Positions 2,011-63,871 of a stretch of 64,000 nt of DNA are shown piece by piece. The translations under genes and the position numbers were made by a program. The notes below the pieces were generated by a model. That model had not been told where the DNA came from and did not search any database. It saw only the letters and a list, made by a program, of their open reading frames with translations. The stretch's first letter is position 1. Each line of letters starts with the position of its first letter. The DNA is from Cristatella mucedo (taxonomy: Eukaryota; Bryozoa; Phylactolaemata; Cristatellidae), in NCBI GenBank assembly GCA_009760855.2, contig WPIO01000033.1:2561501-2625500 (forward strand), given 5' to 3'.

Positions 2011-2049
2011 AGCTGAAAAACTCGAAACCCGCGACTGTGTCTACTACTT

Positions 2050-18639: not shown

Positions 18640-18812
18640 GAGTGATAGCCCAAGAAGTAAGGTGCTTGCTCCCTACGACCGAGATCGTGGGTTCGAATCC
18701 TGCAGCAGGTTATCCTTTGCTGCCAACTGCAAGCAGTGGCGATAGCCTCTAAGGCTCTTCTGCTGCTATACAGATGAGGTTGTTAAATCAACTAATATTT
18801 ATTTATTTACTT
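18640..18812 (+). mobile_element. SINE-B inserted in a minus-strand LINE-A
   Basis: tRNA-like head with GTTCGAATCC B box, hairpin region GCCAACTGCAAGCAGTGGC, GGCTCTTCTGCTGCTATACA and terminal hairpin GTTGTTAAATCAAC, then TATTTATTTATTT. Confidence 0.85.
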
Positions 18813-20842: not shown

Positions 20843-20999
20843 TTGGGTCTTAGCCCAGTGGTGAGGTGCTGGCTCTTTACAATCCAGGTCGGGGGCTTGA
20901 GTTCAGCAGCAGGCGATCCTTTATTGATCACCGCAAGCAGTTGTGATAACTGCTAAAGCTCTTCAGCTGATGTACAAATGAGGCTGTTAAATCAGCTAA
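20843..20999 (+). mobile_element. SINE-B inserted in a minus-strand LINE-A
   Basis: GTCTTAGCCCAGTGGTGAGG (A-box part), GGGCTTGAGTTC (B-box part), GCGATCCTTTATTGATCACC and terminal hairpin GCTGTTAAATCAGC. Confidence 0.83.
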
Positions 21000-21334
21000 C
21001 CTAAAAGGGTCTTCAGTTTTGCAATTCTCAGATCATACTTAATAACTAACACAAACTGTAGAATGCATGAGATCTGCATGTCGTCAAATGTGCAGCATTT
21101 AACAATATTAGGAGTTGACAGCATTCAATCCTAGAACCATGGTTGATCGAGTGGGTCACCTTTGTAGTAAGTGAGGCAATGCACGTGAGCTAAAAGAGAA
21201 AATAAATGAGAGTATGAAATTCGGGGCATGAGGGGTCAGTTAAGTTTGCCTACACTGTCTAGTTTTGGGGCATCCCAGGAGCAACCATCTCGAAATTCCA
21301 CAACTTACCTCGAGAGGTAAAGTATATAAAAACC

Positions 21335-22015
21335 TTATGGATGGCAGCAAACTTTCTCAAATTAAATGACAATAAAATCAACTTACTAATTATGGCAAAA
21401 CAAGTGTGACTCAAAAATTGGAAATTTATTTCCTCAAAATCGGCTCTGCCAGCATATCTCCTGTTGCACCTGCATGAAATCTATGTGTCATGTTCCAAAG
21501 TTACCTTTCAGCTCCACTAAAGTCTGCCTACTTTCAGCTGAAATTGCTAAAAATTCGGACTTGCTTAAGCAGGGATGCTACATCCTAATGGGACCATGCA
21601 TTTGTATTATCCCGTCTCGACTTCTGAAACTCACTGCTTGCTGTTCCACTGGCCTGTGTAATCAGGCGCTTACCGTTGTTGCAAAACTCTGCAGGTAGGC
21701 TTGTCTGCCGTTAGCGTCGCAGTTGCCACATCAGCCATTTCTTCCCGACCTGCACTGGCTCCCAATCCAGCAACCCATCGACTTCAGGGTTCTGTCACTC
21801 ATTTTTAGCTCCTTTCATTGTCTGGCTCCAGCCTACTATCAGAACTACTACCCTATCAGAACTAGCCCCAACCAGGCTAAGCGTCGTGCCACCATCGTTT
21901 CAATCAAATCGTTTAGCATACAAACCTCAAATCCTTTGCAGACCATGCACTTAGTTTGTATGCTTCCAAAGCCTAGAGTTCACTCCTGACTGACGTCACA
22001 ACACTATCACTAAAA
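21335..22015 (+). mobile_element. LINE-A RT fragment
   Basis: LKLNDNKINLLIMAK, FHLRFRVLSLIF-like and AYYQNYYPIRTSP pieces of the RT C-terminal region. The 3' tail is absent. Confidence 0.75.
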
Positions 22016-22079
22016 AGAAGCTAATATTAAAAAAGATTTAAAAAGAAAATAATAATGCACCTGTTTAGACAGCAATTTA

Positions 22080-23210
22080 TGGGTCTTTGTGATTTGTCCT
22101 TTATATGTTTCTTCGTGCTAACACTGTGCAGGCTGCCACTAACGACGTTTACATGATGACACTGTGCATGTCACCATAACCATATTATGCTCACTTGCTG
22201 CATGTATTGATGACATCAGCATATGGATGGCAGCAAATTTTCTAAAACTAAACGATGATAAAACTAACTTACTAGTTATGGGCAAACGCAGTCCGATTCA
22301 AAAATTGGAAAGGCTGCCGCTAAAAATTGGCTCTGCCAGCATATCTTCAGTTAAATCAGCTCGAAATTTAGAGGTCATGTTCCAAAGTTTCCAAAGTTGT
22401 TCCAAAGACGACCACATCAGCTCCACAGTCAAGTCTGCCTACTTTCAGCTACATAACATGGCTAAAATTCGGGCTTGTTTAGATAAGGATGCCCCGTCTA
22501 AGTTGGTCCATGCATTTGTAAGATCCGTCTTGATTTCTCTAACTCACTGCTTGCTGGCCTACCGGCATGTGCAATCAGGCGATTACAGCTGGTGCAAAAC
22601 TCTGCAGCTAGGCTTGTCTGTCGTGAGCGTCGCAGTTGCCACATTACACCACTTCTCGACCTGCACTGGCTTCCAGTCAAGCAGCACAGCGTCTTCAAGG
22701 TCTTGTCGCTCACTTTTAGGTCACTTCATTCTTCGGCTCCAGCATATCTCTCAGATCTACTCCCCCCCATCATCGTACCGCCCGCTTTTCGGAATCCAAC
22801 AATTTACCACTACCTCGTACAAACCTCAAATCCTTTGGAGACCATGCATTTAGTTCGTATTCGTTTCCCAATGCCTGGATCTCACTCCCGACTTGGGTCA
22901 CAACATCCCTTGACTTGACCACATTTAAAAATAACTTAAAAACACCGATTTAGGACAGCATTTAGTGGGTTCCTGCGATTCGTCCTTCATGTGCTTATGC
23001 GTGCTGACACTGTGCATGCTGCCACTAACCACATTTGCATGCTGACTCTGTGCATGTCAACCCTAACCATGTTTTTCATGTTTATCAAGCATGATATTAC
23101 TCATCATTCAATCGCACTTCCCTTTGCAGCAAATGTTAAGTGCCTAGACAGAGATCGAGTTCTCTGAGGATGCTTTATTAAGCGCATTATTATTATTATT
23201 ATGCATGTTG
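22080..23210 (+). mobile_element. LINE-A, best plus-strand 3' half
   Basis: Nearly continuous protein from FLKLNDDKTNLLVMGKRSPI through VKSARNLEVMFQSFQS, DKDAPSKLVHAFV and CRERRSCHITPLLDLHWLPV to LLPPIIVPPAFRN, with two small frameshifts. Then comes a 3' untranslated region and terminal stem-loop with (ATT)n at 23190-23203. Confidence 0.85.
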
Positions 23211-27640: not shown

Positions 27641-27776
27641 TTAGCTGATTTAACAACCTCTTCGTATAGCAGCAGAAGAGCCTTACCGGCTATCGCCACG
27701 GCTTGCAGTTGGCAATAAAGGATCGCCCAACTGTAGGATTCGAACCCACTACCTTAGTCGTGAAGAGCAAGCATAT
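27641..27776 (-). mobile_element. SINE-B
   Basis: Minus strand: GGTTCGAATCCTACAGTTGG, GCGATCCTTTATTGCCAACT, GCAAGCCGTGGCGATAGCCG, GGCTCTTCTGCTGCTATACG and GTTGTTAAATCAGCTAAG. Confidence 0.84.
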
Positions 27777-27847
27777 TTCCTCCAGGACTAGCACGGCCCT
27801 TAAGGAACTACGCCTGGTGATCGCAAGTACTGAACAAGTATAGCATG

Positions 27848-28020: not shown

Positions 28021-28119
28021 TTAGGCTCGAGTAAATGTGTGCACGTATGTGGTAAATCAAGCAGATGGGTGCCTAAACTGCTCTCCTAATTTCCTATAAA
28101 TGAAAGATCATGATTCAAA

Positions 28120-28263
28120 AATCTTATTTACATAGCAGCAGACAAGCCTTAGCTACTTTCACCTCAAAGCAAGCAATAATAAATTGCCTGCTGCTGGACT
28201 CAAACCCACGACCCGGGTCGGAAATTGCGAACAAGTTAGCAGGGCTAAGAAAGTGGCTTACCG
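28120..28263 (-). mobile_element. SINE-B, diverged
   Basis: Minus strand: CGACCCGGGTCGTGGGTTTG, AGTCCAGCAGCAGGCAATTT and GCTTGTCTGCTGCTATGTAA. The 3' hairpin is lost. Confidence 0.65.
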
Positions 28264-39675: not shown

Positions 39676-39841
39676 TGAAGGCTCACTAGGTAAAGCGGTT
39701 TATTTTCACGACCTCGGTCTCCAGGTCGTGTGTTAGAATCCTGCAGTGGGCGATCCTTTATCGCCGCTGCAAGCGACGGCGATAGCCGCAAAGGCTCTTC
39801 TGTCGCTATACAAAAGAGGCTGTTAAATCAGCTAGTATATA
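39676..39841 (+). mobile_element. SINE-B
   Basis: GTGTGTTAGAATCCTGCAGT, central hairpin ATCGCCGCT/AGCGACGGCGAT, GGCTCTTCTGTCGCTATACA and GCTGTTAAATCAGC. Confidence 0.85.
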
Positions 39842-40759: not shown

Positions 40760-42010
40760 ACCAATAATAATAATAATAATAATGCACTTGATAAAGCACC
40801 CTCAGAGAACTCAGTTTTTTCCTGGGCGCTTTACATTTGCTGCAAAGGAAAACGCGATTGAATCGTGAGTAATATCATGCTAGATAAACAACATGAACAA
40901 CGTGGTTAGGGGTGACATGCACAGGGTCAGCATGCAAATGTAGTTAGTGGCAGCATGCACAGTGTCAGCATGCATAAGCACATGAAGGACGAATCACAGT
41001 GACCCACTAGATGCTGTAATAAATCGGTGTTTTCAAGTTCTTTTTAAATGTGGTCAAGTCAGGGGATGTTGTGACGCAAGTCGGGAGGGAGTTCCAGGAT
41101 TTGGGAGCAAATGAACTAAATGCACGGTCTCCAAAGGATTTGAGGTTTGTACGAGGTAGTGGTTAATTGTTGGATTCCGAAAAGCGCGGGCGGTACGATG
41201 CTTGGCCTGGTTGGGGGAGTAGATCTGAGAGATAGGCTGGAGTCAAAGAATGAAGTGACCTAAAAGTGAGCGACAAAACTTTGAATTCGATCCGTTGCTT
41301 GACTGGTACCCTGTGCAGGTCGGCGAGAAGTGGAGTGATGTGGCAACTGCGATGCTCACGACAGACAAGCCTAGCTGCAGAGTTTTGCACCTGCTGCAAT
41401 CGCCTGATTGCACATGCCGGTAGGCTAGCAAGCAGTGAGTTACAGATGTCAAGTCGGGATGTCACAATGTATGAACCAACTTAGACGTAGTATCCTTATC
41501 TAAACAAGCCCGAATTTTAGCAATGTTGTGTAGCTGAAAGTAGGCAGATTTGACTGTGGAGCTGATGTGGTCGTCTAAAGAGAGGTCACTTTGGAACATG
41601 ACACCTAGATTTCGAGCTGATTCAACAGGATATATGCTGGCAGAGCCAATTTTGAGAGTCAGCCTTTTCAATTTCTGAATCACGCTGGGTTTGCCCATAA
41701 CTAGTAAGTTAGTTTTATCATCATTTAGTTTTAGAAAATTTGCTGCCATTCATGTGCGGATGTCATCAATACACGCAGCAAGTGAGTTTAGAGAATTTGA
41801 GGTGCTCGAAGGCTGGGAGGGATCAAAGCAATAGTACAACTGAGTGTCACCCGCATTGAAGTGAAAGCCTAGATTGTGCTTGGCAATCACATCAGTAAGA
41901 GGGAGAGCACAAACCGTGAAAAGAACTGGACCTTGCACGGAGCCCTGAGGTACCACATATTTCAGAGGTACCAAAAATATGGTGTAACTAAGAGGTACTA
42001 AAAATATATA
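40760..42010 (-). mobile_element. LINE-A, best preserved minus-strand copy
   Basis: Tail with (AAT)n at 40763-40783, terminal stem-loop, 3' untranslated repeats, then protein from DLHRVPVKQRIEFKVLSLTF back through ARLVCREHRSCHITPLL, TSRLDICNSLLASLPACAIR, SARNLGVMFQSDLSLDDHIS and NFLKLNDDKTNLLVMGKPSV-type sequence to YVVPQGSVQGPVLF (RT motif B). Only a few breaks. The 5' part is missing. Confidence 0.87.
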
Positions 42011-44039: not shown

Positions 44040-45800
44040 CTCTAGATTTGCTGCTACATTGCATATCACTTTCTCAAAGAAGCCCCCAAACATGTTCACC
44101 AAATTTGTAACGCCATTCAAAGATCAGCATATTCCACTGAAATTGCTTGACTTGATCCGCTGAATAAGTTCCCGTGTTCTCCTAGGGTTTTCAAGATAAG
44201 CCTCGAACTTTAAGGAACAGTTTAAATCCATGTTGGCGCAGTTTTACAGGAGAGCCGTATCAACTTCTCGCTGGTTTGGCCCAGTGGTTAAGGTGCTCGC
44301 CCCGATCAAGGTCTGGTCGAGGTCGCAGGCTTGAGCCCCGTGGCATATGTGAAGCGCTTGAATATAGATTAAGTTCTCTTAGGGCGCTATACAAAATGAA
44401 TTATATAGTTTTCAACCTTGTGATGGCCCAGAAAGCTGTGAACCCCTACAACGAAAATGTTTCAAGCCGCCAACTCCATCCAGTTAAGTTTCTTGGAGAA
44501 TCCTTCACACCATGAGATCTTCTTTATCGATGGTCCCACGGAGATAACAGCTTTGATCGTTGCCTCCGACAGCTGCGGCAAGACATCTTGCAGGCACTTG
44601 AAATCTGCTGACTCGTTGTCTAGAGCAGTGAGAAGCCGCTTCACGAGACCTAACTTGATATGCAGCTACGGTACCAGTACCTTCCGAGGATCTACCAGTG
44701 GGTCCCACTTGATGCTGTTCTTGCCATAGTGAACTTGGTCCTCAAAAGCTAGTTCCATTTGCGATAGCACGCCTGTATGAAACCGCCTAAGAGGTCCATC
44801 AGGAAGGATGCCATTTTGAAGTCTTCAATGGCCTCGGAACCCTTGTCGCCACACTTCAAGGCACTCAGCGACATCTTGACAGCAGTGAAGCCCTCTTTGA
44901 GATGCACAGTGTGAACCATAGGGAGAAACGGGTACTTGTTCCCAATATGAAGCAGCCAAGCTTTGAGGCTCCTGGTCGAACTATCTATGAAAAGGCGTCA
45001 TTGTAGAAGAACCACAGCCCATCTTGCCGACTAAAAAAGATGGAAAAGTTGGAAACGGTTTCTCGTACTTGTTACTTTCACACTTGTATCCAAGAAGTTC
45101 CATTCTTCGAGTTCTAGATGCCAAAAGCTCACCATTGAAGTTGGTAAGACGAGGTCTCTGATAAATTATTGAGCTTTTTCTGGTTAGGGCCAAACGGCCT
45201 TTCTCTCCTCAGCCGCACCTGCAAACTTGAAATTAGAACCTGCAATGTATTTTTCGCAGGCTAACTTGCTGCTCTTTTCTGAAGATGGCCGATCCGTCTC
45301 CAGAGGTGTGGGGACGGAAAGCTCGGGCAGTGTCGTACTGGGGCGATGGATGAAGTAATGTCTAGACATACGATGGTAGGTGTGCTCTTGCATGTTCGAC
45401 GTGTGTGAGAGTCCATCATACAGAAGTAGCAGTTGCTGAGTGGACAATCGGTTCCCGACAGAGTCTTCATTAGCACGTTCGTGGGTCTGTTTTCTCTCCT
45501 GTATCAGCGTGTTAAACCTGCCAGAATTCTTTAAATTACGAAATTATATTTTAAAATTACCTTATATTATGCAAGAAATTCGATCTAGTGTGTATCAATC
45601 TTTCACCTTACGTTCAAGGGGTCTGTTACAGTGTTGGCTTGCGAAATGATGTGCCCAGGGGTTTTCTTGATCCCAGACAGGCATTCTGAAGAATGCTTTG
45701 TAGGCCTCAGACATCTTAACAGATGCTTTCACTGAGTGCTTTTTCGCTCTTGTCTTGATTAATTGCCCTCGCACGTAGCTAAATGCATCTGCTTGGTGCA
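44040..45800 (-). pseudogene. broken copy of a multi-copy animal protein family of unknown function, split by a SINE
   Basis: Reading the minus strand in shifting frames recovers an ordered series of blocks that I recognise from a repeated uncharacterised protein family in many invertebrate genomes. They are ADAFSYVRG with DQENPWAHH; NCYFCM; FIRDLVLP with EEWNFLD; RLFIDSSTRSLKAWLLH; NKYPFLPMVHTVHLKEGF; DPRKVLVP with LHIKLGLVK; SFLGHHKVENY; then, beyond a SINE, ENTGTYSADQ, FEWRYK and GEHVWGLL. At least two conserved Trp positions read as TGA (before RLFIDSS, and in the LAA-NIF stretch), one codon reads TAG, and several frameshifts are present. No function is assigned. Copy number suggests a transposable-element origin, which is inference. 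A SINE-A copy lies inside at 44272-44404. Confidence 0.75.
44272..44404 (+). mobile_element. SINE-A, full length, inserted in the broken family copy
   Basis: CTGGTTTGGCCCAGTGGTTA (A box), GGCTTGAGCCCCGTGGCATA (B box), GTGAAGCGCTTGAATATAGA, TTAAGTTCTCTTAGGGCGC and TATACAAAATGAATTATAT. The two parts of the pseudogene lie on either side. Confidence 0.87.
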
Positions 45801-47418: not shown

Positions 47419-50400
47419 GTAATGTTATGCCTAATCGTGGCAATTAGCTGAGTCGTTCGAAGATGCACACGCCTTGACTGTCCTGCTTACGTTGTGCACC
47501 TTTATTTTGTCTAGCGTTTATCCTAATTCAAAGCCCATTACTGAAGCTTCGCCGTTCCAGATTTCTTATCCTTGAGGTTTGAGCTGGTTCTGCTTATTGG
47601 TAGGCCCGAATTGACTGCACTTTGCTGACTCTCGGTCGCGCGATGCTAGCATATGGATACTTTAAAAATAGGCTAGCACTGCACATCAAGGGTCATGTAC
47701 CATAACTTGTATGTACCTGCAGCTGTTCGAGTACTTGATGGTAGCTAACTAGCTTAGGTTGTTTTCAGTTGCTTTCCGGAAAGCACGTACAACCTTATCA
47801 ACCCAAGTCCAAGCAGGAATGTTACTTAGCTTGAGGATCAGACTATTAACGAATCGATCATGCTTGATTTGTAAAGCCCCAAACTTGATTCTCGAAGAGG
47901 CCCACCAGCTACCTTCACCCTGAGGCGTTTGAATGGAACAACAGGCCAGGGTCCTAGGCGAGTAGGGCTAAGACGCCACAATGTCCGGAGAAATTTTCAC
48001 GCCCCTCTCTATGGTAGTGTGGATATCCACACAGAGGGAAGACCCACCAAGCTGCTGAGGCCAGCCACCCTGCCCTGGAATCAGCACAGCGAACAGGCAG
48101 CAGCTGATGACCTGCCACTATCCTTGGCTAGCCTAACAGACCCAACTACTGGTCCGTCAGGCTTGCTCTGGGCAGCTATCCAGTGTGTCTAGCCAGTTGC
48201 ATACTTTAAGTAGGGTCTGTGAAAGACATGGGCTAAGAACATTACTGTTAAGATTGCTAGCTGCCCGTGGCCAGACTCATAGACAGCAACCCACACTAGT
48301 TAGTAACTTTACTAGTAGATCCCCCATATTGCTATTGTAGCCTTGATTTATCAAGTTTCGTCCATTGTGGTGATCTCTCATCGTCTACAGCCTGCTTGTG
48401 TCTGCTATGGTGCCCTGTGTCTCAGCCATAGCCAAGCTCTCAATAGTGCGGCTCTGTCATTGAGAGTCAGGCTGCAGTCACCTGTTTTCCCATATATTAC
48501 TTTCCAGCGCAGTGCGATAAATGACCAAGGCTGTTCTTGTGAAAGTGCATGCCCTAAATCTTAGAGCGGTGACTTCACCTGTACTTGTTCTGTAATTTTG
48601 TAATATCAGGACGTGTATGTTTGTTTGTGTGTATGTGTGTGTGTGTGTGTGCACTTTTGCACGCATTTGTGTACATATGCATACAACCGGTCAATTCTGA
48701 ACAGGGTAGGGCCTTGCTGCTAGATTCTCATTACATTACTTAGATTCTCCTTGGTCGCTCGCAGCATACGACACTATTGACAACCAGACCCTTTTGGAGC
48801 ACCTCTTGGCACGCCCAGGTAGCATCGGCACAGTGCTAAACTTTGTTAGGTCTGGCCTCAGTGAGAGTTATCTGAGTGCAGATGTATAGGCCTGCCGGTC
48901 ATTTATAGAGCCCTTAAGTGCAGGGCACCTTGGAGTTCGGTCTCAGGCCTCATTATTTTCCCTACCTCTGATCTCCCTCTGGCCTATGTAGGCGGCAAAC
49001 ACAATCTTGGCTCTCATTTCTATGCCAATGACTCTTAGTTCTACCTATTCTTTGGCTCTATCTCAGCCTTGCTCTGCGTCGAAATTTTTTGCCTCCCCTG
49101 CAGCCTGATTCGACAGCGTTCGCCGAGCTGGTTTGGTCTAGTGGTTAAGGTGCTTGCCCCGATTAAGGTCTGACTGAGGTCGTGGGCCTGAATAAGGATT
49201 AAGTTCTCTTGGGGCGCTATATAAATGAATTATATTTGTATTTTATTCTCATGTGGATTGCCACTTTACTTCCTGAAGCTCAAAAGTGATAAGACTTGGA
49301 CACTATTATAATAATAATATTGCATTTGTATAGCACCCTCCGAGAACTTATTCAACTCTTTGCAATGCTGCTACTGTCCAATTGACCTAGCTTCAGCTTA
49401 CAAGCATTGCAAAAATTAAGGCATGCTTAGACAAGTGTATGGCTGCCAAACTAGTTCTGGTGTTTGTGACATTCAATCGAGATAGCTGCAATTTCTTTGA
49501 TTCAGAACTCCCGGCCTGTGCCCTCAATCGCCTGCACCTGGTGCATAACTCAGCAGCTCCCCTGACCTGTCTTCATCGGATTACTTGCAGCATCACACAC
49601 TTTCTGCCTGAGCTTCATTGGCTCACCATTGAGCATAGCATCGCTACATATCCGACCTCCTCACTCCTCAAAAGTGCTCTAACACTCCCCACTCGTCGAC
49701 TTCAAAACAGCTGTTGTTTTGCCACTCATTTAAAAGGTGATAGTAACCAAGAGCTCTTAAGTAATTTGAGCCCAGTGTCTCTAGTGCTGCTCATATTAGC
49801 AGTCACGGAGTGCCTTGAGGCAGACCAGCTTAGTTCCAGTCAGGTTGTAGAGCTCATCATCCAGCAGAATCAGCACTACAGTAAATATATTGTGACCTCA
49901 TCAGGAATTTATACTCGAGTCCCTCTGCTTGCTTTGCTAGATCTTATGACTGTGTTTGATAAGCTCTATCTCAGTAAGAGATTTCAGAGCATAGATGTCA
50001 ACAAGCAGAAGTCCTCAGAGGAGCCTTTAAAGTACAGGTACCCCCTCCCCGGGGATCTGTGCTTGATCCTCTTCCTTTAACAATTTATACTGACTTTTGC
50101 CGATGCGATTGCCGAGCACAAGCTAGACTTCCATTTCAATGCTGATGACACACGGGTGTACCTATGCTTTAATCTTTCCCAGCCTTCCTGCACATCAAAC
50201 TCTCAACTCCATTGCAGTTTGTGTTGCCGACATTCACACTTGAATGGCAATTAAGTGTCTCAAATTGGATGACAATAATACTAGCTTAATAGTTATGGGA
50301 AACCTAGTGTTCATCAGAATAGGAAAGTTTAGTGCTCAAAATTGGCTCTGCTAGCATATCTTCTGTAGCACAAGTTTTTCTCTCACTTGTATGTACCTTC

Positions 50401-53400
50401 CTGTCTCTTGCTCCAGCCTACCCACCGAGCTTTCCAAGCAAGCCATCCAACGTGCTACTTGCTCTTCTGACTCAAGTCGTTTAGCTGTGCTTGTAACCAA
50501 CCTCAAATCCTGTGGAGAACTAGCCTTAGTGTGTGTACTCCCAAAGCCTGGAACTCTTATCCCAACTGACGTCACGACACCCCCTGACTTGACAGCATAT
50601 AAAAAAAAAACTAAAAACGCACCCACTCCTCACAGTTGGGCCACACTCTTTCACTGACTGGCATGGCCCTCCATAGCTTGGGTCCTTCATATCTTGCTGA
50701 ACTACTGGACCTGTATCAGCGTCCCAGTGCTTTCAGGTCCTCTGGGGCCAATACAATGGCTGTATCTTTTCTACTCTTAACGAACGTTGGCGACAGAAGC
50801 TTTTGCTCTGCAGGATCTAGACTGTGGAACTTACCTCCACTATTCTGAGGCAACGACATCTACTCTCCTGCTGCCGACTTTGGCTCTTCACTTCCTGCCA
50901 ACCTGAGCTGCTACTTTCACGGTGACATTCTCTTGGTTGCGTGAGATGTCTGTTGGCTATCGTTATATAGAAAACTCTTGCATAGCCCATGTAGTCCTTG
51001 TGGCATAATGGAGTTACAGACCGAGATAGATTGCATTACACAATATTTGCTGGGTAAGTGAATTGCCGTCTGTGTGCTTATGTGAGCTGACACTGTGCTT
51101 GTTGTCACTTACCAAATGTTTACCTTATTGCTGTAGCTGTAGAGGAGTCATGGGGGCTTTTGCCACACTTTCAAAAGGCAGTGAGTTGCCTGCTGAATGA
51201 CTCGAGCTCACAGCCGGGGTCTTGGAGTGCAAGCATATTACCGTGAACTGTGAGATCCTTACCGTTGGCCTGGGGACCTTTGGTGTGCATTCTCCCTCTT
51301 TTCTTCGTTACCACTGCATTTTGTGCAAATGTAACACGACTTATTTCCCAAACTATAAGTTAGTAATTATCCCTCGTCATCGGATTTTGTCAAGGAAGTT
51401 TCTCCCCTTTGTTGCAATTTGTTTAAGTAATGCTCTGCTCTCATCGTTTTAGAGCCTAGTGCAATGGATGTGGCACATGCTGCGTGCCCATCAGGCGATG
51501 ATGCTCCCATGCCAGAGAGTACAGAAAAGACTGGTAGGTGCTGTGACTCCATCTGACGCCGTTATTATGAGCAGTTATGCCAGTTTTCGTTAAGTTGGTT
51601 GCCACCGAGGACATATGTATAAAGATGGGTACCGAAAAAAATGCCATAAAGCCTCTGTAGCTCGTGATGAAAATGGCTGCTAGGCTTTGTCAATAAATCC
51701 CAGAGGTTGAGCCATGTGTCTCCTTTGCTGAAGGAGGTGCAATGGCTCTCGATAGGTCAATGGATACAGAGCAAAATTCTTACACTGCCCCACAAGGCCT
51801 GCCATGGCTTGGCTCGTTCACACCTGGCTGAACTGCGGCACCAGTCTCTACCTCTTTATGGCCTCAGGTCTGCTAAGGAAAATACATGAGCTGATTCATT
51901 CCTCAGCTTAAAGGCCGTTGGGGACAGCAGCTTTTGCTCTGCAGGTCCTGGACTGTGGAACTCACTTCAACAATTCTTATGCCACGACATCGATTCTCCT
52001 GCTGCCGATTATGGCACATCCTTTCCAGCAGTCCCGAGCTGCTCCTTCCATGCTAATCACGCCCTAAACTGCCCTTCTGACTTAGCTATGCTCTCCTGAC
52101 TCTGCTATGCTTCCCACTTTTTCTTTGTTGAGTGAGACGAAGTCTGTTGGCTACCGAATTCGTACCGAAAGCCGCTTAAGCTGTGAGTGCGCTATACAAA
52201 ACTCTCCTGCATAACACCCACGTAGTCTTTATGACTTTGTGGAGTTGCAGACAGAAATACATTACATTACATTACATGCTTCTGACTTTCACTGTGTTAC
52301 GTAAGATGAAGTCTGTTGGCTACAGTATGTGCACTAAAAGCCGCTTAGGCTTTGAATGCACAATAGAAAGCTGTCCATCGCGTAACACCCACTTAATATT
52401 TGTTGCTTTGTAGAGTTACAGCCGGACATATGCTACATACCGAGAGTTCTCAGACTGACTAGAACAGTTTTGATTATAGTATCATAATCTGGCCGTGGCC
52501 ACATCACACAGCTTGTGCATTTCCACAAATTCTATCGATACAGCATGTATTCACATTCACACGTAACCTTGGCAGGTGCTAAGACAACTAGGTACATCTG
52601 TGCTGACGCCATCAAGCTTTTGCAGTTGCTGTTACCCCTTGTTGCTGCCTCCTCTGTCTTGTCGTAGTTGCATTGATGCCCAAAAGTTGGTGTGCCGTCA
52701 GAGCCACGTCGATGGCTGGATTAGGCAGTTCTTCAGCCAATGGTCGAGACCTGAAAACGCGGTCATTGGGCGTTGAAAAAACGTAAGAGATCTGCTGGAT
52801 CAGCAGCACCGTTTACATAGTGGCTAACGAGTAGTTTCTTTCACCCTGCTTTCGGTTGACAATTAAGGATTGCCTGATGCAGGACTCTACCCACAACCTG
52901 ACCCGTGAAGTGCATGCACATTATTGTTTACGTTATTATGTACCTTATTGTGTACCTTATCGCTGGGCTAAGACCCAGTGGCAACAGGAATAGTTAATGA
53001 GCCCCTCAGCTGAGTGAGGTCGTAACTGACCTCGTGCTGTGGTTAGGCATTTGTGTGCTTTGCAGCTACCAGTGTTGCAAAGGCCCCAAACACATACGCC
53101 ATTATTGCATCTTATTGACTTGCCTGTTTTAAGGATGCCTATGTTGTGTACTAGGATCTTCGGCTGAAGCTGCTGCGTCGGCAGATCTTTGTGCATCCAA
53201 TGCAGTAGTCGAAGATGCTTTGGAAGACGAGGGTGATCTCGAAGTTCGAGCTGAACAGGTTAAAACAAAGAGGAAACCTGCAGAAGTGGTAGTCAAAGAT
53301 AAGAAAGAACCTGTTAACATTGTTTTCATTGGACATGTAGGTGAGTCGCCACATGCATATTCGTGCTCAACTTTGTGCAAGTTATTCCAACCTTAATCAA

Positions 53401-56400: not shown

Positions 56401-59400
56401 ACTGAAATGCTTTCTTTCCAGCATCTTTTAAGTGTGTAGATAAAGGTTTAGTTCTCTTATGGCACTATGCAGTTGAGACTCTGGAACTCAACGCCAAAAT
56501 TCCTGCCTAACGACGCTATCTTCACTGCTGCTGCTGACTCAAGATACTTCCCTGCCAGCCGCTATGCCCTGCTACTTGCATGCTACTTCTGTCAGTCTCC
56601 CAGATCCAGCTACGGTCCTCAGTTTTTCCTTGAATATGCTACTAGAGCATTTTCTTAGCTCTTTAAGAGAACAGAATGCTTTACCGTAGACCGGAAATAA
56701 GTGTATCAAATGATTAGTGAGAACATGCCATGTTCATGGGCACTTTCGTCCTTTTTGCTTCGGTTTAATGTGCAAAGGCACATTGCTGTTTTTCTACACT
56801 TTTGCTTTCCTACATAGAACTGATCCGTGCCTGCATAATGTAAGCCAGTCTTCTAAGAATTTTGAGGTTGGTTTGAGAGCCAGTTAAACGACCGGAGTGA
56901 GAAAAGCAGTTCGTACGATGTGAAGCCTGATTAGGAAGTATTTCCGATAGTTTGACTGGAGCAGGAAGCTGAATTGGCCTCAAAGTGAGAGTGGGAGAAC
57001 CTTAAATGTGATGTGCTCTTTCATTTGGAGCCAGTGCATGTCTGAGAAGTAGTGTACAGTGGAAATAGAACAGATCTCCTTTCCATTGCTGAGGTCGCGT
57101 ATTCTAATTCCTGAGTACGACAAGGTACATCCTCTATTTTTAGCGCTACGATATGTGTATCTCTGGGGTGTATTATATGTAGTATGAAAATCCGATTGAC
57201 CATTTAGCTGCGTATTTTTTATATTTTAGCTTGGAAGATAATACCGACTGAGTCCGATGTGCTTGCCTTTTGTTCACAGTTTCGGTCCTGATTGCCTTCG
57301 AACATCAATCTCTATTTGATGCAAAGCGGTTGTCCTATGAGCAGCTTGATCCATTTTGCTGAAAGCGTGTTCTCCTTATTCTAGTTGCGGAAACTGGAAT
57401 GTGAAAGCCATGTGCCCATTGCTTTCAAGTGTGGGCACCGGTCTTCATTGTTGGTTTTTTAATTATAGGCAAAGTCATGTTCTTACGAGTTGTTTGGTGC
57501 ATCTGACCTCTACTGGTTTGATTAGATCTTGATTCTGGCTGTAGCTGCCCTTGAAGGGCTCATTTTCTGTGCTCCAAACCGTTTCTGTAATTGCACCTAA
57601 CAGGTATCTGACGGGCATGGTTGATAAGCGCACGCTGGAGAAATATGAAAAAGAAGCCAAGGAACTGAATCGCGAGTCTTGGTAAGCATTAGAGACCGGA
57701 ATGCTTATGCATGCAAAGACGGTCAAAGCTTATGTTAGTTTCCTTAACTTTATCTTTGGCGTTCATGGCGTTTACCAGAGATGCAAAGTGTGGCTGGGCT
57801 CTCCTGAATGGGGCCGATGCTTTTGGATTGAATACCATGAGTTCAGTAGAGTCCTTAATGTTTGTGCATTGTGCTACACTGTGGTCATTCATACAAACGT
57901 GTTGGTAGGCAGCATGTAGGAGGATGTGTGACGATGCCGTCCTGTATGTGGTCACCAGAAATGGGCTGAACGTTACATGCCTCATCATATATAATCTTTA
58001 AACATTTCCAGTTGTTTCTGAAGGTGCTTGGTTTTATTGGATATGGTTATTTTGACGCCTTACGTGTTATATTTTTATTTTTGCTCACCATGAGTTGTGA
58101 TTTATAATTTCATGCACGTGCACATTAAACGTAACGGCAGCTGGTCGCCGGGTTCACTGAACGTGCAGTTAAGTTACTTATGTTTGGATTTACCTTTCAA
58201 TTCAAATAACACCAAAAGTTCCTAACTTTGTCTGCTCCCAAGATGATCTATGCCGTATTGACCTGTTTCTATAGCACTGCTGTGTTAAGGTATAATGGTG
58301 TAAATGCTGATTAAATAAGATGTCATGCTTTGTATTTCCAGACATGGTGAGATTAGTCAGTGAAGCAGCCCTGCTTGATCTACCTTCTTGTAGTTGGCAC
58401 TCTATCTGAAGAGATAGTGCTTTTAGGCCATCTTACTACTGTGGGCACGACCTATGACAAGGGGCCTGTAAGCATTGTTGTACCATACGTTATTGCAATA
58501 ATATTTTGGGAGTCTTGATATAGTGGAGGCGTGTCTGTCTCTTGATGGTGTTGCCCCTGAGGCTTAGCCCAGGGGTAAGGTGCTTACTCATCACGACCCC
58601 GGGTCGTGGGTTCGAGTCCTGCAGTGGTTGATCCTTTATTGACCACTGCAAGTGGTGGTGATACCGACTGTTCTGCTGCTATATAAATGCGGCTGTTGCA
58701 GCAGCTTACTATTTCATTTCATACGCAATGGACGGCATGCCGAACAACAATCTCAACTACTCTCGTGGTTTTTAATTAGCGAGCGATGAACTTGGTCTTA
58801 CATGGATGAGGGAGTGGGGGCTGCCTGAAAGGCATTTTAAGAAAGGTATGGAGGTTGCCAATCCAGATGCGAACATAGATATTGCTGAACATGTCACCAT
58901 TAGACCTTATGCGATCAAGAAACGGTAAGGCATGCTTTTGGCAATATGTGGGGAAATGATTGCTTAAACTTGGCCTGGTGTGTGAAGGCACGGCTCGATA
59001 TTTGTCTGTCGGTCTGCCTTGAAGTTAGCATAGAAGTCTACCTGGAGAGGGTTACTGAGGAGTTTTACTGAACTGTAGCATACTGAGAGTGGTTGCTTAC
59101 CAGAAGGTGAGCAACTCTTAGCAGTGCACATGGATGCCTGGCTGCTAAGAATTTTTTTTAAGAAGGTATAGTGAAGAATCTTTCAAATGTGCTAGGTGTA
59201 TGTACACTAGTGGCCATAAGTTTTGCCACTCTTGGCCTACTGTGAGTAGGGTCAAGGTATCTCAGCCGATAGCTGTTGGAACTACTGTAAATTGATGGTA
59301 AATACTAACGAATATGTTTAGATTCATTGGCTATCAGAAAGCAGTGTTTTGGTCTGTAACTTTTGCTCAGCAGGGCGTCTGAGTGCTGAACGGGGGGGGG

Positions 59401-62400
59401 GGGAATCCGGCAGTAGGCATATCTGTTGATGCCCTCCTTAGCAACCGGATAACTTCAATGCCGATGGTCGGCTGTGGTTCCGGATTTCGGTGGCTGGGTG
59501 GGAAGTATTACTCTGCTCACCCTTGGGCATGGTACACGATAATTATTATAGAAACATCTACTATTAGAGAAAATCTGTATCGTGGTTGTATTTTTAAATA
59601 TGGCTGCCACCCTACATGTAGCATTTGCAGACTTCTTTGTCTAATAGAAGGTGCGACGTAGTCTTGTTGTGCTAGCCCACAGGGAAAGTTGGGCAGACGC
59701 CCAGTGACTTTGGCCTACATCGGCAGACAGTATCAAAACATTCGTGCACTACTAGCAGCTATGGCAAAGGGAGGTCGCCTTACTGATTTTGTCAAGTGCC
59801 AGCTATGGTCAGCTTGGAATAAGCAAAAAGCTGCCCGATATAGCATTCGGAAAATGTCTGTGCTAGGGACGATGAAGGACCAGCCTGTGTCTGGGTGCCC
59901 TCGGGCTTCTACTATGAGGGATGGTCGGCTCCTGAAAATGTAGTGTCTGAAGGCCTGCTTTGCCTCTGCTCGAGTCTATGCCAAAGCACTCGAGCTTACC
60001 ACCGACAAGATCCTCAGTGAACAGACGATGAGGCGAAGGCTCGACGAACAGGGGCTCATGATGGCAAGGGGTGGCAAAGGAAGCTCTGCCACTGAAGAAA
60101 GCCCGTGAGGAAGCACGTCTTATATCGGCGTGGCAGCACAGCCACTGGACTACTGGTTATTCTTTACCGACAAATTACGCCGTGTATGGCAGCTGCAAAT
60201 GCCGAACCTACGTTCGACACAAGAGTGACGAAGCATGTGCTGATGTCTCCTTGCAACACACTATGAAGTTCGGGTTCGGATCAGTGATGATGTGGGGAGG
60301 CTTTGTAGCAGGCGATGTAGGGGCCGAAATTCACCGAATTGAAGGCATAATGAGTAAAGACGGCGGCTACGTGCGAATCCTGGACGACGTTGCTGTTCCC
60401 AGTACATTGCGACTGCTAGGCGCTAATTTTATATAGCACTAGGACAACGATCCGAAATATACTATCAAAGTTGTGCTGCCGTTTCTCGACAGGTTCATTT
60501 CACACGCTTGCAATGGCCGAGTCAGAGCCCGGACCTTAACCTGATTGAACAGCTGTGGGATGAGGTTCAGCTTCGGCTAACAGCTCTAGGCACTAACGTT
60601 AGATCTCCGGCCGAATTATGGGACACATTGCAAGCGGTCTGGCATGCTGTACCATTCGAGGTAACCGTGAAATTCGTCGAGTCCATGTCAGTCCGAATAG
60701 CAGAAGCGGTCGCTAATCGGTTAGGTGCCACATCCTGCTAGATTTAGTGTTTCTACTGCCCATGCTGCTGTTTCTGTGTTGAAAAATTCTGTTGGACTGT
60801 ATTGTTTACTTTCGCATTAATTTCACTCGTTCGGACGCTCCAGGAAGACTTTAAAACTGCCTACAGCAATAGTCGACCAGGTGGCCATAGTTGGAGTGGG
60901 TGTGGCAATAGTTATTGCCGCTGTTGTGTTCCCACTTTTTGAATACTGCGCAATAAAAAAAACAGCATTTTACTGGTTAATTTAGAGGGGCTTTTCTGTG
61001 AATGACCCACTTCCATTACTCGATTTACTCGTTTAGTCATTCTATAGCACAAGCTCATGTAATCCGAGATGTCTGGCTTTAGAAGGATTTACTTGCAGGT
61101 CGAAGCGTGCAATCCTTTGCGGTACCATATTAGGCTTTAATGTTGTATTAAGAGTTTCTACTAGCAAGATATGTTGACCCGCTTGCCTATTTAGAATTGT
61201 ATGGGCTGCATGCCTAGCAGGAGCAGCAGTGCCTGTTTGCTCACTTACCTTGTTTCCACTTGATAATCGTAACCCTCGCACCGTAAAATGGTGCTTGCAC
61301 CTAACGGCTTAGGCCACTGGTTCGAGTCACGTAGCTCGAAATGCATGATTGCCAGCTGGGAGCTGGGTGAAAGCCACTGAGGCTCTTCTGCCGATACCAA
61401 ATTGAGGCCGTTGAATCGGTCGATTTTTCTCTCCCCCCTTTTTTACCCGATAATTGTGTTGTGTTGTGTGTAAAGTTGGCCTGGCTGTGTCTAGGTACTT
61501 GTCCTGGGCCTTGGACACAAATATAGAAGAAAGAGAAAAGGGCAAGACCGTCGAAGTTGGCCGGGCATACTTTGAGACTGAGCATAAGCACTTCACGGTT
61601 CTCGATGCACCCGGCCATCGCAGCTTCGTACCCAATATGATTGGCGGTGCTTCACAGGCTGACATAGCTGTACTGGTAAGATGTGCTTGCGTGTGTAGCC
61701 GTTTGCTCGATTGCTCGTCTCTTCTGCTGCATTATGCCGAGGTGCACCTTGTGCTTCTTTTTTGGGGCAGGTGATATCTGCTCGCAAAGGCGAATTTGAA
61801 ACAGGTTTTGAGCGTGGAGGCCAGACCCGGGAGCACGCCATGCTTGTCAAGACGGCAGGTGTCAAGCATCTCGTTATACTTATCAACAAAATGGACGATC
61901 CCACTGTGGAATGGTCCGAGGAACGGTTCGTGTTCGGTTGCTTTTAACTTTGTCAGCTCAAAAGTGTAGCCTTGCCTCACTGCATGAAACAGCTGTCGTT
62001 TATTCTTCTATATGCTGCTGATGTCGACTGTATGTGCATGTGGCTCTGGCAGCACCGGTTTCCTATTTGTGGGACTTGCTCCATCACTTAGGGTTACGTA
62101 AACCTGACCCGATGATTTAACAGCACACGTTTTTGTAGGTTACCACTGAAGCCATACTTGGATGCTCACCTATTTCCCGGTCTTAGCAGCCCTATGGTCT
62201 TGGCCCAGGGTGCTGCGGTCGTACCTCATTACTCAGATCGTAGTTTCGAGTCCTGAAGCTTGCTATTCTTCATTGGCCACTGCAAGAGGGTATAGCTGCT
62301 CTAAGACTGCTGCTTCTAGATAGATGAGGCTCGTGATTCAGATGACCTTTATTTTTATCACGGGCCGAGATCCCCTCTTAATAGTTATGCTAGCAAGCTG

Positions 62401-62746: not shown

Positions 62747-63871
62747 CTGTATTGGCACTTGCTTTGTGTCAGTTGTCCAGGCTACCGGCGTGTCTGTTGC
62801 CATTGTTGCCACAATTAGATTGAAAAGCTTGAAGACATTCCTGCCTCACTCTGTGTTAAACCCGACATTAGTTGTACTCATTGACAGATGGCTGTTGCTG
62901 TGGTAAATAAATTGCCTGTTTATGTCGTCTTGGTGCCCAGTTTAGGCTGATTTCATTGTCGGTTTACTTCCAGGTTCAAGGAATGTCGTGACAAATTATT
63001 ACCGTACCTGAAAAAAGTTGGCTTCAATCCTAAAACGGATATCTATTTCATGCCTTGTTCGGGCCTAAATGGTGCGTTTTTGAAGGAAAGGCCCGACGAT
63101 GCCCGTGCTGCATGGTACAGGTGAGTTCTGAACGAGCCGAGACTGCCCACACTCCGTGTGCTAATCGCTAGTTTAGCGACGGTGTCACTCGCCGGCCTTG
63201 GAGTCTCGCTCTGGCTTCATTCCGACTGCCTCCTTGAGCCATCTGCCTGTGTTTGAGTTTCTTTTCCTGTCCGCTGTTTCACTGGCAACTGTTTCCAATA
63301 TCTCCTTGAAGCCACGGCCGCTTAAGCCTGCTAGCGCTGCTGGCAGTCGACATTTGAGACCTTATCCACACTATCCCCTTTTTCGTTGCTGCAACACCGT
63401 CTTTTCTCGGATCATTTTTCATTCGCTAAAGTAAGCAATAAGCTAATGTCAAGGTTAGCTAGTTCATTTATGTAGAAGTAGAAGTGCCTCTTTGCAGCCT
63501 TTGCCCTCCTCCCAGACGTGCAGCAGGCAATATGCCGTATTGTCTGCTGCACGTCTGGGAGGTCGTGCAGTGCCGGCGCCTTGCTACTGAACTAGGACCC
63601 AGGGTCACGCAATTGTTGTCAGTGGTACTTTTCTTGTCACGGAAAGATGCTTCTATAGAGGAAGCGCCTTTGATAGCTCACGGCGTTGCTGCTGTGATAT
63701 GCAAATGCGATTGTGTGTCAGCACCAGTTGGATTTTGTCGAGTTGATGCTTCAAAACGGATGATTACTGCTTTGCAGTGGACTCACGTTTTTGGAGTACA
63801 TTGACCAATTGCCGTCACTGACTCGAAATGCCGACGGTCCAGTGCGAATGCCAGTCATAGACAGATACAAG
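47202..63871 (+). CDS. GSPT1: eukaryotic peptide chain release factor GTP-binding subunit eRF3, 5' nine exons, continues beyond window
   Basis: eRF3 is the cytosolic GTPase that works with eRF1 at stop codons. Exons join(47202-47418, 51453-51533, 53155-53340, 53922-53955, 57604-57681, 61495-61675, 61771-61925, 62974-63120, 63778-63871) give 1173 nt (391 codons) with every phase matching. Seen: an N-terminal region with two overlapping PAM2-type motifs (about 35-58); an acidic then Lys-rich linker; the EF-Tu-like GTPase domain from about 153, with P-loop GHVDAGKST (159-167), switch Thr217 in GKTVEVG, DAPGH (236-240), NKMD (298-301) and CSGL; and the start of domain 2 at the right edge. The rest of the GTPase/C-terminal part (roughly 200 or more residues by family length) is outside. 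The start ATG has A at -3 and G at +4. GSPT1 and GSPT2 cannot be told apart; outside mammals a single gene is usual. Confidence 0.97.
48613..48651. repeat. (TG)n microsatellite in eRF3 intron 1
   Basis: TG/TTG repeats. Confidence 0.9.
48740..49260 (+). mobile_element. LINE RT fragment in eRF3 intron 1, disrupted at its 3' side by SINE-A
   Basis: [39 protein letters not shown] and [12 protein letters not shown] correspond to RT motifs A, B and C in shifted frames. SINE-A at 49126 follows. Confidence 0.65.
49126..49240 (+). mobile_element. SINE-A in eRF3 intron 1
   Basis: CTGGTTTGGTCTAGTGGTTA, GGTCGTGGGCCTGAATAAGG, ATTAAGTTCTCTTGGGGCGC and TATATAAATGAATTATAT. About 20 bp are missing after the B box. 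Confidence 0.85.
49300..50640 (+). mobile_element. Rearranged LINE-A remnants in eRF3 intron 1
   Basis: Pieces out of normal order: [20 protein letters not shown] (C-terminal), then [20 protein letters not shown] (N-terminal), [14 protein letters not shown] (motif A), [17 protein letters not shown] (motif B), [20 protein letters not shown] (motif C, ADD present). Starts with a reversed terminal tail at 49300-49350. Confidence 0.7.
50641..51045 (+). mobile_element. LINE-B 3' end in eRF3 intron 1
   Basis: [36 protein letters not shown], then GTCTGTTGGCTATCGTTATA and a short ATTACA tail. Confidence 0.72.
51453..51533 (+). CDS. GSPT1: eRF3 exon 2
   Basis: An 81-nt exon between ctcatcgttttag and GTAGGTG. 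It keeps the phase (one base carried in, one out). It encodes a low-complexity acidic linker ([14 protein letters not shown]). Support comes from splice sites and phase rather than sequence conservation. Confidence 0.8.
51660..52430 (+). mobile_element. LINE-B 3' end with an extra tandem tail, eRF3 intron 2
   Basis: [40 protein letters not shown], then the LINE-B tail with ATTACATTACATTACAT (52258-52275) followed by a second, worn LINE-B tail (52300-52430). Confidence 0.8.
52846..52915 (-). mobile_element. SINE-B head fragment, eRF3 intron 2
   Basis: Minus strand: CACGGGTCAGGTTGTGGGTA, GAGTCCTGCATCAGGCAATC, CTTAATTGTCAACCGAAAGC. The 3' half is lost. Confidence 0.55.
53155..53340 (+). CDS. 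GSPT1: eRF3 exon 3 (acidic linker, start of GTPase domain)
   Basis: Encodes an Ala/Glu/Asp-rich linker, a basic patch (KTKRK), then [14 protein letters not shown], the first strand of the G domain. The donor GTGAGT splits the P-loop between Val161 and Asp162. Confidence 0.96.
53410..53490 (+). mobile_element. LINE-A/SINE-A type 3' tail, eRF3 intron 3
   Basis: CAGCATATGTAAAGCTCCTA, GTTTAATTCTCTCGGGGTGC, then TTATTCTTATTATTATT. Confidence 0.65.
53922..53955 (+). CDS. GSPT1: eRF3 exon 4 (34-nt micro-exon, P-loop)
   Basis: A very short exon encoding [11 protein letters not shown], the nucleotide-binding loop. Acceptor ttgtag, donor GTAAGT. The split ATG codon (Met173) is completed by the next exon. 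Confidence 0.96.
53956..55885. other. eRF3 intron 4, unassigned part
   Basis: No repeat or gene recognised. A 54957-55223 stretch is rich in TGTGTG/ATGCATGC-like words. Confidence 0.4.
55890..56690 (+). mobile_element. Degenerate LINE-A and LINE-B remnants, eRF3 intron 4
   Basis: [16 protein letters not shown]-type start, a terminal tail (CAGCATCTTTTAAGTGTGTA, 56418 on), then [20 protein letters not shown] and [10 protein letters not shown], the LINE-B C-terminal pattern. Confidence 0.55.
56850..57070 (-). mobile_element. LINE-A RT C-terminal fragment, eRF3 intron 4
   Basis: The plus strand reads GAGGTTGGTTTGAGAGCCAG, TGAAGCCTGATTAGGAAGTA and AGCCAGTGCATGTCTGAGAA, matching the inverted LINE-A at 9890-10060 and 40990-41330. 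Confidence 0.6.
57604..57681 (+). CDS. GSPT1: eRF3 exon 5
   Basis: Encodes [20 protein letters not shown] and on to NRESW, the switch I region of eRF3. Acceptor cctaacag, donor GTAAGC. The Trp199 codon is split across the 3.8-kb intron that follows. Confidence 0.96.
57690..58555. other. eRF3 intron 5, first part, unassigned
   Basis: No repeat recognised before the SINE-B copy. Confidence 0.4.
58559..58718 (+). mobile_element. SINE-B, best full-length copy, eRF3 intron 5
   Basis: GAGGCTTAGCCCAGGGGTAA (A box), GGGTCGTGGGTTCGAGTCCT (B box), GATCCTTTATTGACCACTGC, AAGTGGTGGTGATACC, GTTCTGCTGCTATATAAATG and GCTGTTGCAGCAGC. Confidence 0.88.
59205..60928 (+). mobile_element. Tc1-like DNA transposon, inactive, in eRF3 intron 5
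   Basis: The element is about 1.72 kb with recognisable inverted ends: CACTAGTGGCCATAAGTTTT at the left and, inverted, about 18 of 25 matching bases near GGCAATAGTTATTGCC at the right. It has TA at the left junction; the right junction is altered. It sits between eRF3 exons 5 and 6 in the same orientation as the gene. Confidence 0.8.
59689..60741 (+). pseudogene. Tc1-like transposase, DD34E type, frameshifted
   Basis: Tc1/mariner transposases cut and paste DNA between inverted ends with a DDE nuclease. Seen in order: a helix-turn-helix linker with [25 protein letters not shown]; the first Asp in FFTD (near 60169); GSVMMWGGF; the second Asp in QDNDPK-like DNDPKYT (60443); and [14 protein letters not shown] with the Glu at 60547. 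The distance from second Asp to Glu is about 34-35 codons, as expected for DD34E. Stop codons (for example after 59940) and at least three frameshifts make it non-functional. Confidence 0.82.
61290..61425 (+). mobile_element. SINE-B variant, just before eRF3 exon 6
   Basis: CTAACGGCTTAGGCCACTGG, GTTCGAGTCACG, central stem CCAGCT/AGCTGG, GAGGCTCTTCTGCCGATACC and terminal hairpin GCCGTTGAATCGGT. It ends only about 70 nt before the exon 6 acceptor. Confidence 0.78.
61495..61675 (+). CDS. GSPT1: eRF3 exon 6
   Basis: Encodes [20 protein letters not shown] through the G3 motif DAPGH (236-240) to SQADIAVL. Acceptor gtgtctag, donor GTAAGA, ends in phase 0. Confidence 0.97.
61771..61925 (+). CDS. GSPT1: eRF3 exon 7
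   Basis: Encodes [20 protein letters not shown] through the G4 motif NKMD (298-301) to WSEER. The donor GTTCGT is a weak match to consensus, but the next exon completes Arg311 in frame, so the join is secure. The intron between exons 6 and 7 is only 95 nt. Confidence 0.96.
62196..62357 (+). mobile_element. SINE-B, diverged, eRF3 intron 7
   Basis: TGGTCTTGGCCCAGGGTGCT, GTAGTTTCGAGTCCTGAAGC, TCATTGGCCACTGCAAGAGG, AAGACTGCTGCTTCTAGATA. Confidence 0.72.
62450..62580 (+). mobile_element. SINE-A, eRF3 intron 7
   Basis: CCTGGTTTGGCCCATGTATA, GGGCTCGAGCCCCGTGGCAT, ATGTAAAGCTCCTGAGTAGA and GATTAAGTTCTTTT. The closing arm is altered. Confidence 0.82.
62681..62745. repeat. (TC)n microsatellite in eRF3 intron 7
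   Basis: About 32 TC units, uninterrupted. Confidence 0.97.
62974..63120 (+). CDS. GSPT1: eRF3 exon 8
   Basis: Encodes [20 protein letters not shown] through MPCSGLNGA (G5 region) to DDARAAWY. Acceptor tacttccag, donor GTGAGT. Confidence 0.96.
63508..63562 (+). repeat. 55-nt near-perfect hairpin in eRF3 intron 8
   Basis: Arms CCTCCCAGACGTGCAGCAG and CTGCTGCACGTCTGGGAGG are exact reverse complements (19 bp). Inside, CAATA pairs with TATTG around TGCCG, with one G-T pair between the two stems. That gives about 25 paired bases and a 5-nt loop. Confidence 0.95.
63778..63871 (+). CDS. GSPT1: eRF3 exon 9 (last in window)
   Basis: Encodes [20 protein letters not shown] then [12 protein letters not shown], the entry into beta-barrel domain 2. 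Acceptor tgctttgcag, donor GTGAGA, phase 0. The downstream exons lie beyond the window. Confidence 0.95.

Follow-up and report, generated by a model that had tools for sequence, protein, structure and literature searches.

Predicted RNA hairpins, probable neutral decay and apparent compensatory change in SINE-B, a repeat family of Cristatella mucedo

The stretch of the bryozoan Cristatella mucedo genome analysed here (contig WPIO01000033.1, positions 2,561,501 to 2,625,500 of the forward strand; 64,000 nt, hereafter the window, with positions counted from its first base) carries a family of short interspersed elements (SINEs) that we call SINE-B, short (~160 bp), dispersed and of high copy number. 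A first-pass annotation of the window had counted 11 SINE-B copies and had read them as a tRNA-like head followed by a central and a terminal hairpin, with both arms of each hairpin changing together between copies. The family is real, and the count of copies in the window rises to 13, each with E < 1e-3 in an iterative nhmmer search. All the arm letters quoted for the copies at 1608, 18640, 20843, 39676, 58559 and 61290 are present where they had been placed. The copies are listed below, together with the parts of the 58559 copy; HP1, HP2 and HP3 are hairpins of the 3' half, and A, B and C are subfamilies, both described further on.

1607..1706, plus strand: SINE-B copy, nearest subfamily C, with a (GT)n tract in the head's place
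1923..2035, minus strand: SINE-B copy, old (nhmmer)
18642..18794, plus strand: SINE-B copy, subfamily B, terminal hairpin GTTG/CAAC (nhmmer)
20839..21000, plus strand: SINE-B copy, nearest subfamily A (nhmmer)
27642..27790, minus strand: SINE-B copy, subfamily B (nhmmer)
28111..28250, minus strand: SINE-B copy, old (nhmmer)
39688..39833, plus strand: SINE-B copy, subfamily C, of the three the nearest to its consensus (nhmmer)
51122..51243, minus strand: SINE-B copy, old (nhmmer)
52794..52981, minus strand: SINE-B copy, old (nhmmer)
58553..58709, plus strand: the 58559 copy named in the first-pass annotation, subfamily A (nhmmer with the subfamily consensus, E 5e-34)
58565..58575, plus strand: A-box-like TAGCCCAGGGG in the head of the 58559 copy (read in the sequence)
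58609..58619, plus strand: B-box-like GGTTCGAGTCC in the head of the 58559 copy (read in the sequence)
58620..58650, plus strand: predicted HP1 of the 58559 copy, TGCAGTGGTTGAT-CCTTT-ATTGACCACTGCA, 13 bp (mean pair probability 0.98)
58651..58680, plus strand: HP2 region of the 58559 copy, arms AGTGGTGG (58651-58658) and CTGCTGCT (58673-58680) (alignment, folding)
58691..58706, plus strand: HP3 of the 58559 copy, GGCTG-TTGCAG-CAGCT (sequence, family alignment)
61281..61419, plus strand: SINE-B copy, old, terminal hairpin GCCG/CGGT (nhmmer)
62190..62346, plus strand: SINE-B copy, old (nhmmer)
63455..63604, minus strand: SINE-B copy, old (nhmmer)

SINE-B extends well beyond the window. In the genome of 572 Mb (688 contigs), first-look searches with three window copies as queries returned 3,271, 5,055 and 3,409 candidates, 40 of which were scored per query, and an exact 18-base word spanning the terminal hairpin occurs 5,155 times. 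With the 39676-type query, the 40 matches listed comprised the query and 39 further ones, 88-91% identical to it. One degenerate word searched in a viral collection gave 0 matches. Our sample for closer comparison consisted of the window plus fetched loci totalling 297,346 bases, ~361 kb altogether, part of the loci having been picked for SINE-B. It contained 124 non-overlapping matches at E up to 1, of which 109 were below 1e-3 and lay nearest to subfamily A (46), B (47) or C (16). Dropping 15 of the 124 with E > 1e-3, 5 partial ones, 2 identical ones and 2 that repeat window copies left 100 for alignment; 4 more had over 12 gaps in body columns and were removed, and 96 were used for statistics. 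Two of the loci, L023 and L024 (contigs C525 and C464), carry near-identical sequence around the same SINE-B copy, as a duplication or as uncollapsed haplotypes.

The alignment separates at least three subfamilies, A (58559 type), B (18640 type) and C (39676 type), which have a common body and different heads. Median identity to the own consensus is 86% in A, 89% in B and 92% in C, and since this last value is the highest of the three, subfamily C is probably the youngest; the copies called old range from about 58% identity upward. SINE superfamilies with a central domain likewise comprise several subfamilies with different heads and one body, and SINE-B is like them in this pattern. The conserved central domains named for them are V, CORE, Deu, Nin, Ceph, Inv, Pln, Snail and Meta (PMC8010984).

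In line with the proposed A and B boxes, the head of the 58559 copy holds the box-like words TAGCCCAGGGG and GGTTCGAGTCC, and by eye the aligned copies hold similar ones; we judged these against what we take to be the consensus of the RNA polymerase III boxes. ARAGORN with relaxed settings gave, among the results listed, poor tRNA-like folds for A and B. The 3' half shows a folding signal: in the A, B and C consensuses it has z-scores of -5.40, -4.21 and -3.00, a stability that 0 of 200 shuffles match for any of them, and SINE-B RNA is, as modelled, structured. Three hairpins make up the prediction. HP1, TGCAGTGGTCGAT-CCTTT-ATTGACCACTGCA or similar, appears in the minimum-energy folds of all three consensuses and had not been drawn before. 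HP3 is the terminal hairpin of the first-pass annotation; it too is in the minimum-energy fold of each subfamily consensus, with near-identical letters across A, B and C. Between them, in A and B, stands the two-tier HP2, with an outer part AGYGGTGG/CTGCTGCT and an inner part AGCC-GTTAA-GGCT; in the minimum-energy fold of subfamily C the inner part is identical and the outer part takes a different pairing register.

The central stem proposed earlier is made of the 3' arm of HP1 and the 5' arm of HP2, and as drawn it does not hold up. Each of its halves reaches a mean pair probability of at least 0.5 in only 2 of the 96 single copies, a level reached by HP1 in 53, HP3 in 49 and the inner part of HP2 in 37. 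Compared directly with the claimed central pairing, HP1 is more probable in 76 copies and less probable in 20. The 58559 copy itself is decayed in places, with 6 bases of its inner HP2 hairpin gone and HP2 not predicted to form (alignment, folding), and with a changed loop in HP3, whose pair probability is only 0.01.

The tail of SINE-B has relatives in the window, in a second family, SINE-A, and in fragments of long interspersed elements (LINEs):

2758..2902, minus strand: SINE-A copy
21338..23199, plus strand: LINE fragments, with C-terminal pieces of reverse transcriptase (to 22762) and a hairpin tail with (ATT)n at 23138-23199 (tblastn, tail search)
40770..41764, minus strand: LINE fragment, with a reverse transcriptase piece at 41764-41082 and a hairpin tail with (ATT)n at 40830-40770 (tblastn, tail search)
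44267..44404, plus strand: SINE-A copy with a tRNA-like head and a two-tier hairpin tail ending GCTATACAAAATGAATTATA
49118..49234, plus strand: SINE-A copy

SINE-A, of which 25 copies from the window and loci were aligned, has the 3' end AAGCGCCTGAATAGAGATTAAGTTCTCTTGGGGCGCTATACAAATGAATTATA. Its tail aligns to that of SINE-B with a score of 42 against 19.6 +/- 3.9 in shuffles, and with HP3 and the end repeat taken away the score is 37 against 15.6 +/- 3.1; 0 of 2000 shuffles come as high in either comparison. Judged by this alignment, HP2 with the GCTATAYAAATGA that follows it is homologous to the SINE-A tail. The tails of SINE-A and of the LINEs, AAAGCGCC...GGGYGCTTTATCAAGTG(ATT)n, are matched by one joint query (91 matches at E up to 1, the best 70 of the 91 listed; 47 LINE tails aligned). 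At the two window places the LINE tail lies 376 bp (plus-strand locus) and 252 bp (minus-strand locus) past the reverse transcriptase pieces, and from this distance we infer that the pieces and the tail at 21338..23199 belong to one element. The typed tail consensuses of the LINE (-26.3 kcal/mol), SINE-A (-24.5) and SINE-B are all predicted to fold into two-tier hairpins. In the upper stem, SINE-A and SINE-B have other letters in both arms and keep the loop core TTAA and its flanks; the aligned 3' arm is shifted by ~2 bases, and we do not count the difference as strict compensation. One pair of the LINE lower stem is C-G in 25, T.G in 13 and T-A in 6 of the 47 tails, with descent not removed.

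The window LINE is presumably of the CR1/L2 type, and SINE-A is perhaps its proper SINE partner, that of the (ATT)n LINE. A young LINE family, found in 16 of loci L039-L060 with ~98% identity to its consensus over the 3' part, has possibly been active in recent times; its copy in L059 has a single frame that encodes both an endonuclease and a reverse transcriptase domain. Against its 302-residue consensus, the LINE pieces of the window show 30-93% identity, and those beside the two (ATT)n tails 30-60%. The 3' end of this family has no HP3 and ends in (ATTAC)-like repeats.

We measured covariation over the 96 copies against a home-made null that takes a FastTree tree, draws Fitch rates for each column and lets columns change independently. 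For the claimed central stem, cells with double changes number 3 in the outer part (null as high in 196 of 300 runs) and 20 in the inner part (37 of 300). The arm dinucleotides, compared in the 88 of the 96 copies that have such letters, are independent, with 2, 10, 9 and 58 copies in the four main cells against 1.5, 9.8, 9.0 and 58.9 expected. Low pair probability and independent arms together led us to reject this stem, and with it the covariation that had been read from it.

How such an impression can arise is seen from CpG decay. The observed/expected ratio of CpG in the window is 0.61, and at the CpG sites of the consensuses divergence is 1.6-2 times that of the remaining sites (C, 0.162 vs 0.081; B, 0.244 vs 0.125; A, 0.260 vs 0.167). 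Where CG stands opposite CG in a stem, decay of each arm to TG or CA means that half of the double changes re-pair. For instance, the outer central stems of the 1608 and 39676 copies, ATCACC/GGTGAT and ATCGCC/GGCGAT, differ in just this way, CG having gone to CA in one arm and CG to TG in the other, and several more stem steps consist of CG opposite CG or of its decay products. One CpG step in HP1 has weakly associated arms (Fisher p 0.028, descent not removed).

HP1 as a whole has 37 double-change cells, a number that the null reaches in 10 of 300 runs and which speaks for compensatory change in this hairpin. The excess is due to a single pair, which most of subfamily A has as T-A and the other copies have as G-C; when this pair and the CpG pairs are left out, the null reaches the observed value in 343 of 500 runs. 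The pair differs by a double transversion, a change not made by CpG decay, and its null frequency is 1/1000 taken alone and 57-63/1000 family-wise over the 30 pairs of HP1 to HP3; no pair passes 0.05 family-wise among the 96 copies, this one in HP1 coming best at near 0.06. It is associated within subfamily A as well (Fisher 5e-6, descent not removed). Separately, the old copy at L002:30-74 has its HP1 lengthened to a near-perfect hairpin of ~20 bp. Repair of an imperfect palindrome by template switching might make such a hairpin, which suggests one more way in which paired changes arise.

For the terminal hairpin, words were counted over the whole genome for the wild type (5,155), both single changes and the double change at two base pairs. 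The change of C-G to T-A, which is that of the 18640 copy, gives 185 singles that keep pairing as G.U, 176 singles that break it as C.A, and 5 doubles, the 18640 copy among them, against 6.3 expected under independence. Given that pair-keeping and pair-breaking singles are equally common and that the double stands at independence, this pair has the marks of neutral decay. The change of T-A to C-G, on the other hand, has singles of 176 and 217 and 22 doubles against 7.4 expected, a ~3-fold excess (odds ratio 2.97, Fisher p 3e-5) that is more than pure neutral decay would give. The 61290 copy, which has other loop and stem letters and thus falls outside these counts, shares that type of change. 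The excess may come from one minor lineage, and both singles create CpGs that back-mutate, so that descent and compensation are not separated at this pair. In the 96-copy set, HP3 has 4 double-change cells, as many or more being found in 221 of 300 and 358 of 500 null runs, and we rejected it there as a covarying helix; its paired fraction of 0.883, against 0.80 in the null, is reached in only 9 of 300 and 19 of 500 runs and again tells against decay alone. The idea that the terminal arms change together has some support at the T-A pair and none at the C-G pair. As an argument for kept structure, covariation does not hold for the central stem or at one of the two terminal pairs tested, and may hold at the other; shared descent of one source lineage could account for both the T-A/G-C pair of HP1 and the T-A excess of HP3.

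With fair probability, in our judgement, SINE-B is an ordinary tRNA-like SINE of several subfamilies, with a LINE-type tail hairpin that is recognised in trans and with differences between copies that are mostly neutral decay. An element built of a head with A and B boxes, a body and a LINE-type tail would be transcribed by RNA polymerase III, as its boxes suggest. The 3' half of the transcript would fold into the 13-bp HP1, the two-tier HP2 followed by GCTATAYAAATGA, and HP3, before an end that in subfamilies B and C is (ATTT)n-like. The two-tier tail hairpin would then be bound in trans by a stringent reverse transcriptase from a CR1/L2-type LINE, and target-primed reverse transcription would follow, priming near the (ATTT)n end. 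After insertion, copies would undergo neutral decay, more quickly at CpG steps than elsewhere, and the seemingly compensatory differences between single copies would mostly be products of it; a small part, namely T-A to C-G in HP3 and T-A versus G-C in HP1, may be true change of source genes. HP3 may belong to the handle or may have been added later. The earlier suggestion that a partner reverse transcriptase recognises the structure remains the most likely use of the tail, because part of it is shared with SINE-A, which in turn resembles the window LINE tail; the support once drawn from the central stem is lost.

Several results weigh against this account, in addition to the T-A excess and the paired fraction of HP3. 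ARAGORN at default settings found 0 tRNA genes in the window and in four typed consensuses, and Rfam gave no tRNA match when the window, the interval 58500-58760 and 11 loci were searched, such matches as were obtained lying far under the gathering scores and being treated as chance. Target-site duplications are weak, with a score of at least 9 in 4 of 93 copies (null 0.93%) and of at least 11 in 2 of 93 (null 0.05%). The outer part of HP2 reaches a mean pair probability of 0.5 or more in only 21 of the 96 copies, and RNAalifold finds a near-absent consensus structure (-0.13 kcal/mol, 3 pairs) over 94 of the 96, L022:1-110 and L089:46-141 being omitted; so weak a consensus may be what decayed copies might give. 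When the LINE and SINE-B tails are compared directly the score is not significant, being reached by 279 of 2000 shuffles, or by 646 of 2000 without HP3 and the repeat, and SINE-B is thus linked to the LINE through SINE-A only, the likeness of SINE-A and LINE itself coming from joint-query matches and folds. Lastly, a LINE whose 3' end bears the terminal hairpin had been looked for as the partner, and none occurs among the tail matches outside SINE-B in ~361 kb; one match, at L010:3130-3154, is cut off by the end of its locus and cannot be judged.

A different reading is that sequence alone was inherited, that the hairpins are incidental and that the paired changes come from CpG decay, shared descent and chance. 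The faster CpG divergence, the stem steps of CG opposite CG and the structureless RNAalifold consensus all agree with it, but it would leave unexplained why the folds of the consensuses exceed those of shuffles so greatly in stability and why SINE-A and SINE-B have the two-tier shape and loop core in common despite other stem letters. Neither the double transversion in HP1 nor the T-A excess in HP3 fits it, and we regard it as rather unlikely.

Less likely still is a chimeric tail, in which HP2 and GCTATAYAAATGA derive from an L2-type LINE and HP3 with (ATTT)n was acquired later from another LINE, with a switch of partner. After AAATGA, SINE-A runs directly into an AT-rich end and SINE-B inserts the HP3 block, after which the (ATTT)n-like end of subfamilies B and C follows. 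HP3 and this end have no significant match in the tails of SINE-A or the LINE, the scores being reached by 158 and 475 of 2000 shuffles, and the near-identity of the HP3 letters in A, B and C also speaks for this reading. Yet no HP3-bearing LINE was found among the tail matches in the ~361 kb, the one cut-off match aside, or at the young LINE 3' end, and HP3 could have been born within the SINE. With a similarly small chance, the tail could be a two-part 3' handle, its L2-type two-tier hairpin joined by an HP3 with (ATTT)n that comes from, or is matched to, another LINE, HP3 being kept by T-A to C-G compensation; if this were true, SINE-B would record a partner switch or dual recognition.

The original proposal, in which compensatory change in source genes preserved the central stem as well as the terminal hairpin for a partner reverse transcriptase, is the least probable and doubtful. 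The HP3 T-A doubles and paired fraction and the HP1 counts favour it; against it stand a central stem that scarcely pairs and has independent arms, an HP3 C-G pair at independence, double changes in HP3 that the null readily reaches, and an HP1 excess that hangs on one pair whose family-wise value misses 0.05.

A background to the favoured account, a tail hairpin recognised in trans and copies that mostly decay, comes from LINE and SINE pairs in other animals. According to one paper, deletion of the 3' stem-loop of L2-clade LINEs abolishes movement, the loop outweighing the stem letters in ZfL2 (PMC4176376). Stem changes lowered movement in UnaL2, and freely varying stems are therefore not the rule (PMC4176376). 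As described there, ZfL2-1 and ZfL2-2 of zebrafish and UnaL2 of eel with its SINE have a 3' stem-loop divided into an upper and a lower stem, with a short repeat behind it. SINE-A, SINE-B and the window LINE are like these stringent pairs in their predicted two-tier hairpins, in a TTAA/TTGA-type loop and in stem letters that differ; unlike them, SINE-B would add HP3 before its end and the 13-bp HP1 ahead, both predicted structures.

Compensatory change in the tail hairpins of SINEs and LINEs has already been published for plants, where L1-clade LINEs and monocot SINEs show compensatory stem mutations in a 3' hairpin with a conserved loop (PMC3747384). That hairpin, in another clade and host, is common to LINE and SINE, whereas HP3 of SINE-B is known here from the SINE, no LINE with it having been found in the sample. 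A literature text search that combined a 12-base word of HP1 with 'sine' brought up two unrelated herpesvirus papers, which says little. Beyond this family, the results illustrate how easily old repeats can seem to covary through CpG decay and through mere chance when copies number in the thousands; counting four words for each base pair is a cheap way to test for this across a whole genome. Furthermore, if HP3 has a LINE of its own, SINE-B would document how a SINE exchanges its partner or gains a second one.

Apart from the SINEs, the window contains an RBR-type exon that includes long stretches of alanine and of glutamine (15641-17485, minus strand), supported by a match to the IBR domain PF01485 at 24.7 bits against a cut-off of 24.3. 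The exon is, we assume, RNF217-like, and as a query it gave no match in a plasmid collection. The window also holds many LINE fragments, and elsewhere in the genome, on contig C387, reverse transcriptase frames of up to 722 aa cluster within a few kb at two places, 2522672-2534087 and 3424084-3431140.

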